Shown in pieces: positions 13,026 through 17,279 of a stretch of 64,000 bases of DNA. The notes beneath the pieces were generated by a model that did no database searches, was not told the origin of the DNA, and saw only the letters and a program-made list of their open reading frames with translations. The stretch lies in NCBI GenBank assembly GCA_021822115.1, contig JAJZSA010000004.1, forward strand, positions 3,838-67,837, given 5' to 3'. A program made the translations under genes and the position numbers. Origin of the DNA: Pseudomonadota bacterium. Its GTDB lineage: Bacteria > Pseudomonadota > Gammaproteobacteria > Burkholderiales > Gallionellaceae. Positions within the stretch are counted from its first letter, which is position 1. Each line of letters begins with the position of its first letter.

Positions 13026-16000
13026 CTACCCGTTCAGGCTTTCCAGCACCTTCTGCAGCCGCTTCACCGACACGATCACCGGCGTCTTCAGTTCCTGCGC
13101 GAACAGCGACACGCGCAGCTCCTGCAACAGCCACTGGAAATCCTCCAGCCGTTCGTCCGCTGCGCCCTGCTGCGCTTGCAGGCGGCGCTGCCATTGTTGC
13201 AACAGCGGTTGCAGCTGCGCCAGGTTCTGCGCGTCGCGCGACGGGTTGCCGCGCAATTTCTCCAGCCGCACGTTGATCCCCTTGAGGTAGCGCGGCAGGT
13301 GTTGCAGGCGCTCATACGGGGTGCGCGCGATCCACTCTTTGCCCAGCAAGCCTTCCAGCTGACTACGGATATCCTGGGTAGCCTGGACATGCGACTTGAA
13401 GCCGGGCAAGGCCTTCTGCAAGGCCTGATATTCGTTGAGCACCGTGCCGACCAGACGGGCGATCTCCTGCCCCACCAGGTTGAGGCGCGACTTGCCGTCC
13501 TTGCAGCGTGCGGTGAAATCCTTCTCCTTTTCCGGCCATGGCTCATTCAGGCAGCAGCGGTCGAAGGTCAGGCTCAGGATCTGCCGTTGCAGATCCTGCG
13601 GGCTGCCGAAGGGCAGGAACAGCATGGCCATCTTCTGTAGCTCGGGCAGGTTCTTCTCCAGGTATTTCACCTGCTCCTTCAGCGCCAGCATGAACAATCG
13701 ACGCAAGCCACCGCGATGCACGGCGCGCGCTTCGTCGCGCGTGTCGTATTGGCGCAGCGTGACGGCGTCACCTTCGTCATGCAACGCATTGAACACGGTG
13801 ATGGTCTGTCCCGCGCGCGGCACTTGGGTGGTCTCGGCGAAATCGCCGAAGGTCCAGGCGGTGTAGCGTTGCAAATCTTCCCTCACCCCCCCCCCTCTCC
13901 CGGAGGGCGAGGGGCTAGAACCGGCACGCTGCACTGACTCCCTCTCCCTCCGGGAGAGGGCTGGGGTGAGGGAGATTTTTGGCGCCCATTCGCCGCGCAA
14001 TTGCATGAAGTTCCTGCCCATGCCGAGCTGACGGCCATGCTCGTCGATGATGCGGAAGTTCATCAGCAGATGCTGCGGCAGTTGCTCCAGGCGGAACGCA
14101 TCCAGCGGCACATCGAGCTGCTTCTGCTCGCGGACGTAACGCGCGATGGCTTGCAGCAGCGGCATATTCGCAGGCGGCACCGCAGTGCAGAACGCCGCCG
14201 CGAATTCCGGCACCGGCACGCAATGGCGACGCAGGCGCTGCGGCAGCGACTTGAGCAATTGCGCCACCTTCTCTGCCAGCAAACCCGGCACCAGCCATTC
14301 GCAGCGCGCCGCCGACACTTGGTTGATGAGTGCCTGTGGCACGGTCAGCGTGACGCCGTCATCGTTCTTGCCCGGTGCGAAGTTGTAGGCCAGTGCATAG
14401 CTGACGCCGTTCATCTCCAATTGCGGCGGGAACTGCTCGGTGGTGATGCCCGCCGCCTCGTGGCGCATCAGGTCGTCCTTCTTCAGGAACAGCAGCTTGG
14501 CATTGTCGCGTTCGGCTTCCTTGCGCCACTTGTCGAAATCCGCGCCGTTGTGAATGCCGGGCGGGATGCGCGCATCGTAGAAAGCGAAGATCAATTCATC
14601 GTCCACCAGTACGTCCGGACGGCGCGATTTGTGTTCCAGCGCTTCGATGTCGGCGATGAGTTTGCGGTTGTGCGCGAAGAACGGCGCCTGCGTGTTGAAC
14701 TCACCTTCCACCAGCGCGGTGCGGATGAGCACCTTGCGCGATTCTTCCGGGTCCATCGGCCCGTAGTGCACGCGCTTCTTCGGGTTGATGAGCAGACCGA
14801 ACAAGGTGCTGCGCTCCCACGCCGCTACCTGGGCCGCCTTCTTCTCCCAGTGCGGATCGAAATAACTGCGCTTGATCAGGTGCGCGCCCACCTCTTCCAG
14901 CCACTCCGGTTCGATGCGTGCCACGCAGCGCGCATATAGGCGCGTGGTCTCCACCAGTTCGGCGGCCAGCACCCATTTCGCGCCCTTCTTCGCCAGCACC
15001 GAGTTGGGCGCGATGAAGAACTTGGTCTCGCGTGCGCCGAGATAATGCGGCTCGTTCACCGCACGCGTACCGATGTTGCCGATCAGGCCGCACAGCAGCG
15101 CCTTGTGGATCTGCTCATAGCTGGCGGGCTGCTCGTTGAAACGCGCGCCGGTCTCGGAAAGTTGCGCATGCAGTTGCTGGTGCAGTTCATGCCACTCGCG
15201 CAGACGCAGCGGCGACAGGAAGTGATCGCGACACTCGGTCGCCCATTGCTTGTTGCTCTTCTTGTGCTGCACGCCTTGCTGGAACCAGGCCCACAACTTG
15301 GGATAAGCGAGGAAGTCCGAACGTTCGTCGTTGAAGCGCTGGTGCGCGGCATCCGCCGCTTCGCGCCGCTCCGCCGGGCGGTCGCGCGGATCTTGCAGCG
15401 CCAAGGCGCTGGCGATGATGACGATCTCGGTGAGGCACTGGTACTGCTTGCCGGCCAGCAACAGGCGCGCGATCTTGGGATCGAGCGGCAAGCGCGACAG
15501 CTCGCGCCCCAGCTTGGTGAGCCGGCGCTGCTCATCGATGGCGTTCAACTCGTGCAGCAACTGATAGCCGTCGGCGATGGCGCGCGAACCGGGCGGCTCG
15601 ATGAACGGGAATTCGCCCACCTCGCCCAGCCCCAGTGCGCTCATGCGCAGGATGACGGTGGCCAGCGAGACGCGGAAGATCTCGGGATCGGTGAATTCGG
15701 GGCGTTGCAGGAACTCTTCTTCATCGTACAGGCGGATGCAGACGCCGCTCATCACGCGGCCGCAACGACCGGCGCGCTGATTGGCCGCCGCACGCGAGAT
15801 CTTCTCGATGTGCAGTTGCTCCACCTTCTGGCGCAGGCTGTAGCGGTTGATGCGCGCCAGGCCGGTGTCGATCACGTAGCCGATGTTGGGCACGGTGAGC
15901 GAGGTCTCGGCCACGTTGGTGGCCAGCACCACGCGGCGCTGGTTGCCGGGCTTGAACACGCGATCCTGCTCGGCGGTGGACAGGCGCGAGAACAGCGGCA

Positions 16001-17279
16001 ATATCTCGATGCCCTTGTGCTGGTGCTTGCGTAGCGCCTCGGCGGCTTCGCGGATCTCGCGCTCGCCGGGCAAGAACACCAGCACGTCGCCGCGCAGGCC
16101 GCCGATGGACAACTCATCCAGCGCCGCGCAGATCGCCTGCGGCATGTCCTGCATCTCGCCTTCTTCATCCTGCTGCGGCGGCCGGTAACGCACCTCCACC
16201 GGATAGCTGCGACCGGAGACCTGCAACACCGGCGCGGGTTTCAGCCCTTCGCCCTCCGGGAGAGGGGGCGGGGTGAGGGAACGCGCACTCAATTTCTCCA
16301 GAATAACCTGGAGCACCCCCTCTGTATTTTCGAGCACCTCGTTGTTCCAGAACCTGAGCACATTGATACCCTGCTGCTCCAACCATGCGCTGCGTTTTTC
16401 ATCGTGCTTGAGCTGGTTATGCTCCGCATGCTGACCGCCATCCAGTTCGATGGCCAGTTTTGCGTCGTGGCAATAAAAGTCGAGGATGTAATTTCCTAGC
16501 GGATGTTGGCATCGAAATTTCTTGCCTGACAATTGATTGCCGCGCAGTAAATTCCAGAGCAACGACTCGGCATCGGTTGCCTCCTTGCGCAACTCACGAG
16601 CGTGGGTTCGCAATGACTCCGGCAAGGGGGCGTGATGCGTGGAGGATTCCCTCACCCCCACCCCTCTCCCAGTGAGAGAGGGGCTTATTGCCGCCCCTGC
16701 GAAGTGCTTCGAGAAACGTTCCGCATCCAGCGTGGCCGAGGTGATGATCAGCTTGAAGTCGGGGCGCTTCGGCAACAGCTGTTTGAAGTAGCCCAGCAGG
16801 AAGTCGATGTTCAGCGAGCGTTCGTGCGCTTCGTCGATGATCAGCGTGTCGTATTGCTTCAACAGCGGATCGCTGTGGATCTCGGCCAGCAGGATGCCGT
16901 CGGTCATCAGCTTGATGGCGGAATCGGGCGACACCTTGTCGTTGAAGCGCACCTTGTAGCCGACCACGCCGCCCAGTTCGGATTTCAGTTCCTGCGCGAT
17001 GCGCGCCGCCACCGAACGCGCGGCCACGCGGCGCGGTTGGGTATGACCGATGACGCCGTTGATCCCGCGCCCGATGGACAGGCATATCTTGGGCAGTTGC
17101 GTGGTCTTGCCGGAACCGGTCTCGCCGCACACGATGACCACCTGGTGTTTCTCGATGGCGGCGGCGAGGTCGGCGCGCCGTGCCACCACCGGCAGGTCGG
17201 CCGGATATTCGATGGCAGCGAGTTGCCGGATACGCGCCAGGCGGCGTTCGGCGAGGGCGGAAAGTTTCTGTTCGCTCAT
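13026..17279 (-). CDS. hrpA: ATP-dependent RNA helicase HrpA with two in-frame palindrome insertions
   Basis: A 1417-residue DEAH-box helicase. Core motifs are present: GETGSGKTTQ (residues 52-61), DEAH in IIDEAHERS, SAT at 181-183, and QRAGRCGR. The HrpA-type C-terminal extension (DUF3418) is complete. It is longer than the roughly 1300-residue E. coli protein because of two insertions. Residues 197-349 replace the direct junction between KHFAGA and PVLQVSGRSYPVEV and carry a DUF559 nuclease-like domain. Residues about 1100-1134 are pure palindrome-encoded sequence. Both keep the frame. In E. coli HrpA rescues stalled ribosomes; whether this version is active is unknown. The start at 17279 overlaps the upstream nuclease gene by 4 bp (ATGA). 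Confidence 0.93.
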   Translation of the reverse strand: MSEQKLSALAERRLARIRQLAAIEYPADLPVVARRADLAAAIEKHQVVIVCGETGSGKTTQLPKICLSIGRGINGVIGHTQPRRVAARSVAARIAQELKSELGGVVGYKVRFNDKVSPDSAIKLMTDGILLAEIHSDPLLKQYDTLIIDEAHERSLNIDFLLGYFKQLLPKRPDFKLIITSATLDAERFSKHFAGAAISPSLTGRGVGVRESSTHHAPLPESLRTHARELRKEATDAESLLWNLLRGNQLSGKKFRCQHPLGNYILDFYCHDAKLAIELDGGQHAEHNQLKHDEKRSAWLEQQGINVLRFWNNEVLENTEGVLQVILEKLSARSLTPPPLPEGEGLKPAPVLQVSGRSYPVEVRYRPPQQDEEGEMQDMPQAICAALDELSIGGLRGDVLVFLPGEREIREAAEALRKHQHKGIEILPLFSRLSTAEQDRVFKPGNQRRVVLATNVAETSLTVPNIGYVIDTGLARINRYSLRQKVEQLHIEKISRAAANQRAGRCGRVMSGVCIRLYDEEEFLQRPEFTDPEIFRVSLATVILRMSALGLGEVGEFPFIEPPGSRAIADGYQLLHELNAIDEQRRLTKLGRELSRLPLDPKIARLLLAGKQYQCLTEIVIIASALALQDPRDRPAERREAADAAHQRFNDERSDFLAYPKLWAWFQQGVQHKKSNKQWATECRDHFLSPLRLREWHELHQQLHAQLSETGARFNEQPASYEQIHKALLCGLIGNIGTRAVNEPHYLGARETKFFIAPNSVLAKKGAKWVLAAELVETTRLYARCVARIEPEWLEEVGAHLIKRSYFDPHWEKKAAQVAAWERSTLFGLLINPKKRVHYGPMDPEESRKVLIRTALVEGEFNTQAPFFAHNRKLIADIEALEHKSRRPDVLVDDELIFAFYDARIPPGIHNGADFDKWRKEAERDNAKLLFLKKDDLMRHEAAGITTEQFPPQLEMNGVSYALAYNFAPGKNDDGVTLTVPQALINQVSAARCEWLVPGLLAEKVAQLLKSLPQRLRRHCVPVPEFAAAFCTAVPPANMPLLQAIARYVREQKQLDVPLDAFRLEQLPQHLLMNFRIIDEHGRQLGMGRNFMQLRGEWAPKISLTPALSRRERESVQRAGSSPSPSGRGGGVREDLQRYTAWTFGDFAETTQVPRAGQTITVFNALHDEGDAVTLRQYDTRDEARAVHRGGLRRLFMLALKEQVKYLEKNLPELQKMAMLFLPFGSPQDLQRQILSLTFDRCCLNEPWPEKEKDFTARCKDGKSRLNLVGQEIARLVGTVLNEYQALQKALPGFKSHVQATQDIRSQLEGLLGKEWIARTPYERLQHLPRYLKGINVRLEKLRGNPSRDAQNLAQLQPLLQQWQRRLQAQQGAADERLEDFQWLLQELRVSLFAQELKTPVIVSVKRLQKVLESLNG
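13879..13914 (-). repeat. REP-like unit R1
   Basis: On the minus strand it contains CCCTCGCCCTCCGGGAGAGG followed by a G-run and GTGAGGGA. It is nearly identical to R3 inside the second insertion. Encodes SPSPSGRGGGVRE in hrpA. Confidence 0.85.
13938..13974 (+). repeat. REP-like unit R2
   Basis: Contains CCCTCCGGGAGAGGG then CTGGGGTGAGGGAG; inverted partner of R1. Read in the hrpA direction it encodes SLTPALSRRERE, a peptide type seen wherever this palindrome class falls in coding sequence. Confidence 0.85.
16243..16281 (+). repeat. REP-like unit R3 (left end of the DUF559 element)
   Basis: AGCCCTTCGCCCTCCGGGAG followed by AGGGGGCGGGGTGAGGGA. It matches R1 in the 106-bp insertion. Encodes SLTPPPLPEGEGL in hrpA. 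Confidence 0.85.
16647..16685 (-). repeat. REP-like unit R4 (right end of the DUF559 element)
   Basis: Read on the minus strand it is CCCCTCTCTCACTGGGAGAG followed by GGGTGGGGGTGAGGGAA. It is more diverged than R1-R3 but has the same architecture. Encodes SPSLTGRGVGVRE. Confidence 0.8.

Follow-up and report, generated by a model that had tools for sequence, protein, structure and literature searches.

The DNA analyzed here, called the window below, was a 64,000-nucleotide stretch of contig JAJZSA010000004.1 (positions 3,838 to 67,837; assembly GCA_021822115.1) from a bacterium of the family Gallionellaceae. Its hrpA gene, which encodes a DEAH-box RNA helicase, contained a discrete in-frame element consisting of a DUF559 nuclease domain between two palindromic ends. 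Comparison with relatives indicated that the nuclease was under strong purifying selection, that the state of the same HrpA site varied repeatedly among filled, empty, and palindrome only, and that nearly identical hosts carried different inserts. It also indicated that related elements occupied the same sites of other genes in different hosts and that palindromes accompanied most of the DUF559 genes examined. The best reading of these data, and one that we consider probable, is that this was a mobile element of the homing type that is tolerated through translation in frame instead of splicing and whose hairpin ends also spread as repeats resembling repetitive extragenic palindromic (REP) sequences.

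The in-frame element in hrpA

The HrpA protein was encoded by a single open frame of 1417 codons from the ATG (window positions 13029-17279, minus strand). The features of the gene and of its inserts were as follows.

13026-17279, minus strand: hrpA, DEAH-box RNA helicase host gene, stop codon included (TIGR01967 HrpA, 1577.6 bits)
17106-17126, minus strand: HrpA helicase motif GETGSGK, intact
16821-16835, minus strand: HrpA helicase motif DEAH, intact
16728-16742, minus strand: HrpA helicase motif TSAT, intact
16236-16694 (equivalent, 16233-16691), minus strand: in-frame element of 153 codons (comparison with an empty allele and with solved HrpA)
16649-16683, minus strand: upstream end of the element, hairpin CCCCTCTC..GGGAGAGGGG followed by a GTGAGGG tail towards DUF559
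16290-16613, minus strand: DUF559 (PD-(D/E)XK / Vsr-like) nuclease core, amino acids 223-330 (Pfam, alignment, and structure model)
16245-16279, minus strand: downstream end of the element, CCCTCAC tail and hairpin CCCTCTCCC..GGGCGAAGGG, inverted relative to the upstream end
15756-15779, minus strand: HrpA helicase motif QRAGRCGR, intact
13880-13972, no strand assigned: further in-frame palindrome insert, within the C-terminal region of HrpA; an inverted hairpin pair with tails outward and no nuclease

An earlier, sequence-only reading had proposed an in-frame insert of 153 codons, and this was borne out. Pairwise comparison with the empty allele at locus L007 (0.88 amino acid identity) gave an insert of exactly 153 codons and no loss of host codons. 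The coordinates proposed at that time (16233-16691) were acceptable, and those shifted by one codon (16236-16694) were equally valid given a repeated Ala codon. The two halves of the window HrpA (up to amino acid 195 and from amino acid 349) aligned with the solved HrpA chain 9ggr_A2, which we take to be the Escherichia coli protein, up to its position 243 and from its position 244, respectively. Because the halves met at adjacent residues, the solved HrpA was also an empty allele. The Pfam domains were in the order DEAD (amino acids 41-185), DUF559 (amino acids 223-330), and Helicase_C (amino acids 395-509), and the position of the insert was taken from these limits and from the sequence alignment with the solved HrpA. 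No target-site duplication was evident by eye against L007-L009, where the junctions had diverged.

We found no Pfam match to a Hint/self-splicing domain across the whole HrpA protein at an E value of 0.001 and, in a check for group I/II intron structure, no Rfam match at the gathering score in 15900-17000, where the frame was open throughout. PADLOC analysis yielded just a weak local match to DpdF. The element RNA was predicted to fold better than shuffled sequences (-208.5 kcal/mol; z, -6.2; 0 of 100 shuffles as good), with the element ends paired. We also considered whether ribosomes might bypass the insert, but this would be needless because the DUF559 frame was conserved, free of stops, and under purifying selection.

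The Pfam match to DUF559 (PF04480) scored 127.5 bits against a cut-off of 20.6. Asp267, Glu278, Asp280, and His284, which the sequence-only reading had named as an intact set of PD-(D/E)XK-type residues, were all present, as was Asp293. The columns with the catalytic-type residues were conserved in 99-100% of 147 aligned DUF559 domains (the 146 of the DUF559 tree described below plus the window query), and these residues were invariant in a second set of 48 domains. Residue 257 of the window protein (16509-16511) was Cys, where 99% of the aligned domains had Arg, and this substitution may affect the activity of the window copy. The ratio of nonsynonymous to synonymous substitution (omega) was 0.088 for DUF559 in hrpA (21 of 55 pairs computable) and 0.087 for the host helicase (40 pairs), which points to strong purifying selection on the nuclease, about equal to that on the helicase. 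The structure model of the domain was good (predicted local distance difference test score, 88). The nearest solved structures were Neisseria ngo0050 (3hrl), I-Bth0305I (3r3p), and Vsr, in this order; a Foldseek search ranked Vsr tenth. The nearest solved fold outside DUF559 was that of the homing endonuclease I-Bth0305I (PDB 3r3p); a common fold is no proof of homing.

The ends of the element were inverted repeats of 51 nucleotides with 76% complementarity (arms at 16231-16281 and 16647-16697). At each end, the hairpin was outermost and the GTGAGGG tail faced the nuclease, and both were open in frame, in agreement with the REP-like ends that the sequence-only reading had described. The arm CCCTCNCCC was present in 11 copies in the 64-kb window compared to 2.8 expected, a number that was reached in 0 of 100 shuffles, and 10 of the 11 copies were inside hrpA. 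The hairpin pair at 13880-13972 was like a miniature form of the element, similar to a REPIN (two inverted REP sequences). The palindromes were translated into Ser/Pro/Gly-rich linkers such as SPSLTGRGVGVRE and SLTPPPLPEGEG. An internal start is possible because the palindrome tail in the window contained an in-frame GTG. As the window element lacked a stop codon of its own, such a start would yield the nuclease fused to the C-terminal portion of HrpA, and release of a free nuclease would require proteolysis. A second repeat of about 60 bases was nested in the palindrome loop and was likewise read in frame, i.e., as a repeat inside a repeat. This nested repeat was found in flanks of DUF559 or palindromes at L001, L012, L022, L091, and L093 and in proteins P0003, P0014, P0017, and P0025 (peptides like GTTSHSTKPASGQVAGYL).

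HrpA sites in relatives and elements in other genes

Eighty-four of 86 nonredundant HrpA genes covered the insertion site of the window (site 205). Long, DUF559-type inserts of at least 100 codons were found in 14 of the 84 genes, shorter inserts of at least 8 codons were found in 10, and 60 had no insert. Thus, the alignment with HrpA of relatives contained empty sites, and the pattern that would have refuted the sequence-only reading, a domain shared by every close relative without palindromes, was not what we observed. Pairwise comparisons were made with the first 58 of 80 HrpA loci (L020 was mispicked and L050 did not extend to the site). Nine of these loci carried DUF559 at the window's site (L001-L006, L010, L012, and L032), four carried a short palindrome insert (L011, L022, L035, and L049), and the others that covered the site had no insert of at least 10 codons. 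Locus L114 had a lone palindrome at the site with the same right junction peptide as the window (LTPPPLPEGEGLKPAPVLQV), and it looks like a deletion remnant.

Inserts were also found elsewhere in HrpA. Short ones, many of them of the palindrome type, recurred near positions 440, 570, and 970, and DUF559-sized inserts were present at site 570 in 4 of 85 genes (14 proteins in the DUF559 tree set). In the pairwise comparisons, each HrpA gene that was not cut by a contig end kept one frame across at least 1229 host positions, and therefore the inserts seen there were frame-neutral. Other repeat types were found in frame at about position 441 (L002, L019, L035, and L041) and about position 410 (L003 and L023), with peptides of the PPSGGKLEGG type and the DRDTLLAKPxDCGNGRPAA type. 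HrpA looks like a general trap for in-frame repeats.

When proteins similar in length to HrpA were searched with the insert region, 369 were retrieved, of which 120 were listed. Host genes were named provisionally on the basis of the Pfam column, the source name, and motifs. Among the 120 listed proteins, the hosts included HrpA (two sites), methionyl-tRNA synthetase MetG (16 proteins), Eco57I-type methylases (17 proteins), DUF1156 and MmeI-like methylases, a class I tRNA-synthetase-domain protein (P0005), RecG (P0118), MutS (P0098), and MetH-like proteins (P0108 and P0109). The sequence-only reading had viewed the insertion as an unusual event; instead, the same HrpA site was used repeatedly and other conserved genes were used likewise. 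In the case of RecG, DUF559 was in frame between the DEAH-type and SAT motifs. It was also in frame within MutS, the MetH-like proteins, and the tRNA-synthetase-like protein, and in the MetG proteins it was in the linker ahead of the tRNA-binding domain.

By an automatic peptide pattern, DUF559 was flanked on both sides by palindrome peptides in 95 of the 120 listed proteins (upstream in 105 and downstream in 109), and the background was 58 of 600 single windows. When the remaining 25 proteins were inspected by eye, most had variant palindrome readings; P0040 (start cut), P0078 (upstream side), and P0107 were ambiguous.

In a tree of 146 DUF559 domains, lineages clustered largely, although not strictly, by site. 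All 16 MetG copies were in one clade (100/99), and the copies in Eco57I methylases required 3 changes compared to a shuffled mean of 16.3. The numbers of changes were 12 for HrpA site 205, 6 for HrpA site 570, and 3 each for DUF1156 and MmeI-like hosts. The two HrpA counts were inflated because HrpA copies L095, L097, L098, and L103 were marked as standalone and several truncated HrpA proteins were marked as other. Clustering by site with exceptions is the pattern expected of elements that have home sites and jump now and then.

Elements were also found between genes, where DUF559 was in a short frame of its own at 43 of 52 loci. Based on loose patterns without a background run, an ATG or GTG was located no more than 18 bases after a purine-rich, palindrome-type tail at 22 of the 43 short-frame loci, the frame entered a downstream palindrome-like arm before its stop at 36, and the frame stopped in ATGA at 10. 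The purine-rich tail could serve as a ribosome-binding sequence, and the ATGA stop could overlap the next start codon. Judged by these patterns, the element ends seem fit for read-through within genes or between genes.

These data bear on the possibility that the insert is an adaptive fusion, i.e., a nuclease domain of HrpA that the cell uses (for example, in RNA or DNA processing or in defense) and that ordinary recombination exchanges among strains. The strong purifying selection on the nuclease, its nearly invariant catalytic-type residues, and the intact helicase motifs are what such a fusion would display. A DUF559 protein that acts on the chromosome also has a precedent: according to one report, Caulobacter cells that lack a methylase show a DNA damage response for which a DUF559-containing, Vsr-like protein is required (PMC12907096). 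However, the same type of cassette was present in unrelated genes (metG, mutS, recG, metH, and methylase genes) and between genes, its ends were palindromes with up to 253 copies per Gallionellaceae genome, and the site was empty in most relatives. We therefore regard an adaptive fusion as unlikely, although it is the strongest of the alternatives.

Palindrome abundance and DUF559

We counted the palindromes and DUF559 in relatives of the window's host. The palindrome was present in 140 of 158 Gallionellaceae genomes (5321 copies, up to 253 per genome), compared to 7 of 158 genomes and 8 copies for a control of the same composition. DUF559 was present in 107 of the 158 genomes and, with weak matches counted as present, in all 39 that had at least 50 palindromes. 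Palindrome number was correlated with DUF559 (rho, 0.68), and the same value was obtained in a phylum sample of 249 genomes; since the genomes are not independent, the correlations are not probabilities. In the phylum sample, 23 genomes with a best match above 1e-5 were counted as lacking DUF559, which was present in 26 of 32 genomes with at least 20 palindromes and in 7 of 152 without palindromes. At the level of loci, hairpins were located within about 150 bases on both sides at 40 of 50 DUF559 loci (52 minus 2 short ones, and including a few copies inside larger genes), whereas a hairpin was present in 3.5% of 1760 windows drawn at random from the neighborhoods of hrpA. The weak DUF559 matches at L107 and L108 (G029 and G023) were in a 1781-codon frame and represented a different kind of DUF559 protein.

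The palindromes might instead be ordinary REP sequences moved by a REP-associated tyrosine transposase (RAYT) or other IS200-type transposase, with DUF559 genes riding between two of them. A study of REP sequences and RAYT genes describes a hairpin with a conserved tail, solo and inverted-pair (REPIN) forms, two units that enclose a catalytic gene, and copies of which some are located in frame within genes (PMC3733652). The hrpA element resembled such REPtrons in its hairpin and tail, its solo and inverted-pair forms, and its enzyme gene between units, and Y1_Tnp, the transposase domain, was detected in 122 of the 158 Gallionellaceae genomes. On the other hand, the enzyme was DUF559 instead of a Y1 transposase, and the tail was GTGAGGG rather than GTAG or CGTC. 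Palindrome number tracked DUF559 better than it tracked Y1_Tnp (rho, 0.22). Twelve genomes with at least 20 palindromes had no Y1_Tnp match, and 11 of the 12 had DUF559, while six genomes with at least 5 Y1_Tnp matches had zero of these palindromes. In addition, 20 RAYT-like loci were defined only by length, a Y1_Tnp match, and an HxH motif; one was dropped as short, and none of the other 19 had these palindromes on both sides. Several RAYT-like genes (L243-L262) had ends of their own, such as GGGGTCAGACTCGA..TCGAGTCTGACCC, which by eye were unrelated to the hrpA palindromes. Movement by a RAYT/IS200-type transposase is quite improbable in light of these data.

Non-vertical history of the insert

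The state of site 205 was mapped on a host tree of 109 rows, which was built by a quick method with the columns around insert sites removed and host-identical rows merged. Truncated proteins L032, P0012, and P0033 were left out, and two rows were mislabeled as empty (P0040, which was truncated, and P0044, which had DUF559 near site 570). The DUF559 state changed at least 19 times (starred branches force 14 of these changes; the mean for shuffled states was 34.2), and the listed protein set favored filled alleles, so its tree changes are informative and its frequencies are not. Filled and empty alleles were neighbors in cases such as L008/P0002, L009/P0048, and L004/L053. The hosts of P0003 and P0024 were 99.6% identical and their inserts were 68.7% identical. 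Across 528 pairs of 33 proteins, the correlation between insert identity and host identity was 0.26. For the 11 genes with DNA, synonymous divergence (pS) was higher in the insert than in the host in 53 of 55 pairs, with medians of 0.77 and 0.54 that are rough due to saturation. A single ancient entry into hrpA followed by many independent deletions is very improbable: many of the inserts at the HrpA site were close to each other, part of the site-570 DUF559 copies nested in site-205 lineages, and L114 resembled a deletion remnant, but loss alone yields neither the distant inserts in P0003/P0024 and other close hosts nor the excess synonymous divergence, unless inserts mutate far faster than the host gene.

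We also examined whether the flanks of filled alleles were more similar than expected to those of other filled alleles. At p < 0.05, this was the case for 7 of 14 DUF559-bearing alleles at site 205, one of which was the window, and for 1 of 10 short-insert alleles at this site, as well as for 11 of 23 alleles at site 441 and 2 of 20 at site 570. Such similarity is only suggestive of coconversion of the flanks.

Proposed explanation

The sequence-only reading had offered two options, and the selfish, frame-neutral passenger is the one that the data favored, given relatives in all three states at the site, the many changes of state on the host tree, the different inserts in nearly identical hosts, and the palindromes around most DUF559 loci examined. 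In the homing explanation that we prefer, the DUF559 nuclease, acting as a homing endonuclease, would cut an element-free allele at or near the site, and repair templated by a filled copy that had arrived through DNA transfer would install the element and a few flanking codons. Hairpin ends, solo or paired, might then spread or persist as nonautonomous derivatives. The element would be harmless through its end-to-end open frame, where known in-gene homing elements rely on splicing. The palindromes would serve as linkers, and the host protein would have an extra domain between DEAD and Helicase_C. Between genes, a start codon often came after the upstream end, and the frame usually entered the far palindrome before its stop.

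Several points weigh against this explanation. Cleavage, transfer, and mobility are steps that we infer. Junctions at the site differed by a few codons among alleles, so insertion was less exact than in textbook homing, and site fidelity was imperfect: copies in the HrpA sites, DUF1156, and MmeI-like hosts were not single clades in the DUF559 tree, and MmeI-like copies were among the HrpA-570 copies. The element was too small for an additional DNA-binding region of the kind found in EDxHD homing endonucleases (below), which leaves site specificity unexplained. The flanks of the window copy matched an empty allele best (0.864, compared to 0.841 for the best filled allele), and therefore this copy gave no sound sign of a conversion tract. 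The flank signal was uneven among sites, and adaptation of residues adjacent to the insert could mimic it. DUF559 was lacking in 9 Gallionellaceae genomes and 6 phylum-sample genomes that had at least 20 palindromes, and the DUF559 loci L107 and L108 lacked palindromes. Finally, some DUF559 copies had an internal stop (G016:C6, G061:C8, G115:C123, G146:C1, and G143:C8), as expected if old copies decay.

We further propose that the hrpA element belongs to a class of splicing-free homing elements that carry a DUF559 nuclease, have hairpin ends, and are open from end to end. Elements of this class would invade fixed sites, both inside conserved genes and between them, in many bacteria. Their survival would rest on palindromes that serve also as linkers or, between genes, as ribosome-binding, start, and stop sequences, and a large family of REP-like palindromes would owe both its origin and its movement to this class. 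We consider the case for and against this broader proposal to be evenly balanced.

Relationship to known systems

Inteins with homing endonucleases are inserted in frame in conserved proteins, have a patchy distribution, and reuse the same sites. The hrpA element shared all three properties; unlike inteins, it had no splicing domain that Pfam could find, and the insert would remain in the protein. With EDxHD, Vsr-like homing endonucleases it shared the I-Bth0305I fold, lineages tied to insertion sites, and patchy presence. In an intein context, one report counts a DUF559 gene as a member of the EDxHD homing family (PMC9403480), and another describes EDxHD enzymes as long, multidomain proteins with extra DNA-binding parts, treated together with group I introns (PMC3943268). 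In contrast, the hrpA element had palindromic ends, no extra domain, and no intron or intein that our searches found.

Rickettsia palindromic elements (RPEs) are palindromes that lie in frame in proteins; they are described as palindromic inserts, with no nuclease gene mentioned in the available text (PMC3733652), whereas the hrpA element had one. LAGLIDADG genes are fused in frame to fungal mitochondrial rps3 (PMC7902536), and thus a homing-type nuclease shares one frame with a host protein, as in hrpA. As far as the available text of that report goes, the rps3 case involves another nuclease family and one host gene, within an intron-encoded gene, and palindromic ends are not mentioned. In-frame REP sequences and RPEs, homing nucleases in inteins and introns, and in-frame LAGLIDADG-rps3 fusions are known. 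Our searches of the open-access literature found no description of an element that combines a nuclease of homing fold with hairpin ends and that uses many conserved genes without splicing. The sequence-only reading had described DUF559 frames beside such palindromes as known in bacterial genomes, a statement for which our searches of the open-access literature gave no support (subscription papers were not searchable).

Implications

A selfish homing gene in coding sequence would be expected to sit in an intron or intein, which spares the host. Here, a nuclease with a homing fold appears to live in conserved genes, including tRNA-synthetase, mismatch-repair, and helicase genes, merely by keeping the frame. 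Two carriers without a metagenome-assembled-genome label, Sideroxydans lithotrophicus (P0014) and Ferrigenium sp. UT5 (P0016), may allow work in culture. If the proposed explanation is true, it would provide a function for part of the widespread DUF559, a domain of unknown function, and would name the mover of a palindrome family that exceeds a hundred copies in some genomes. It would also offer old proteins a way to acquire new domains, and proteins annotated as nuclease fusions may carry passengers.
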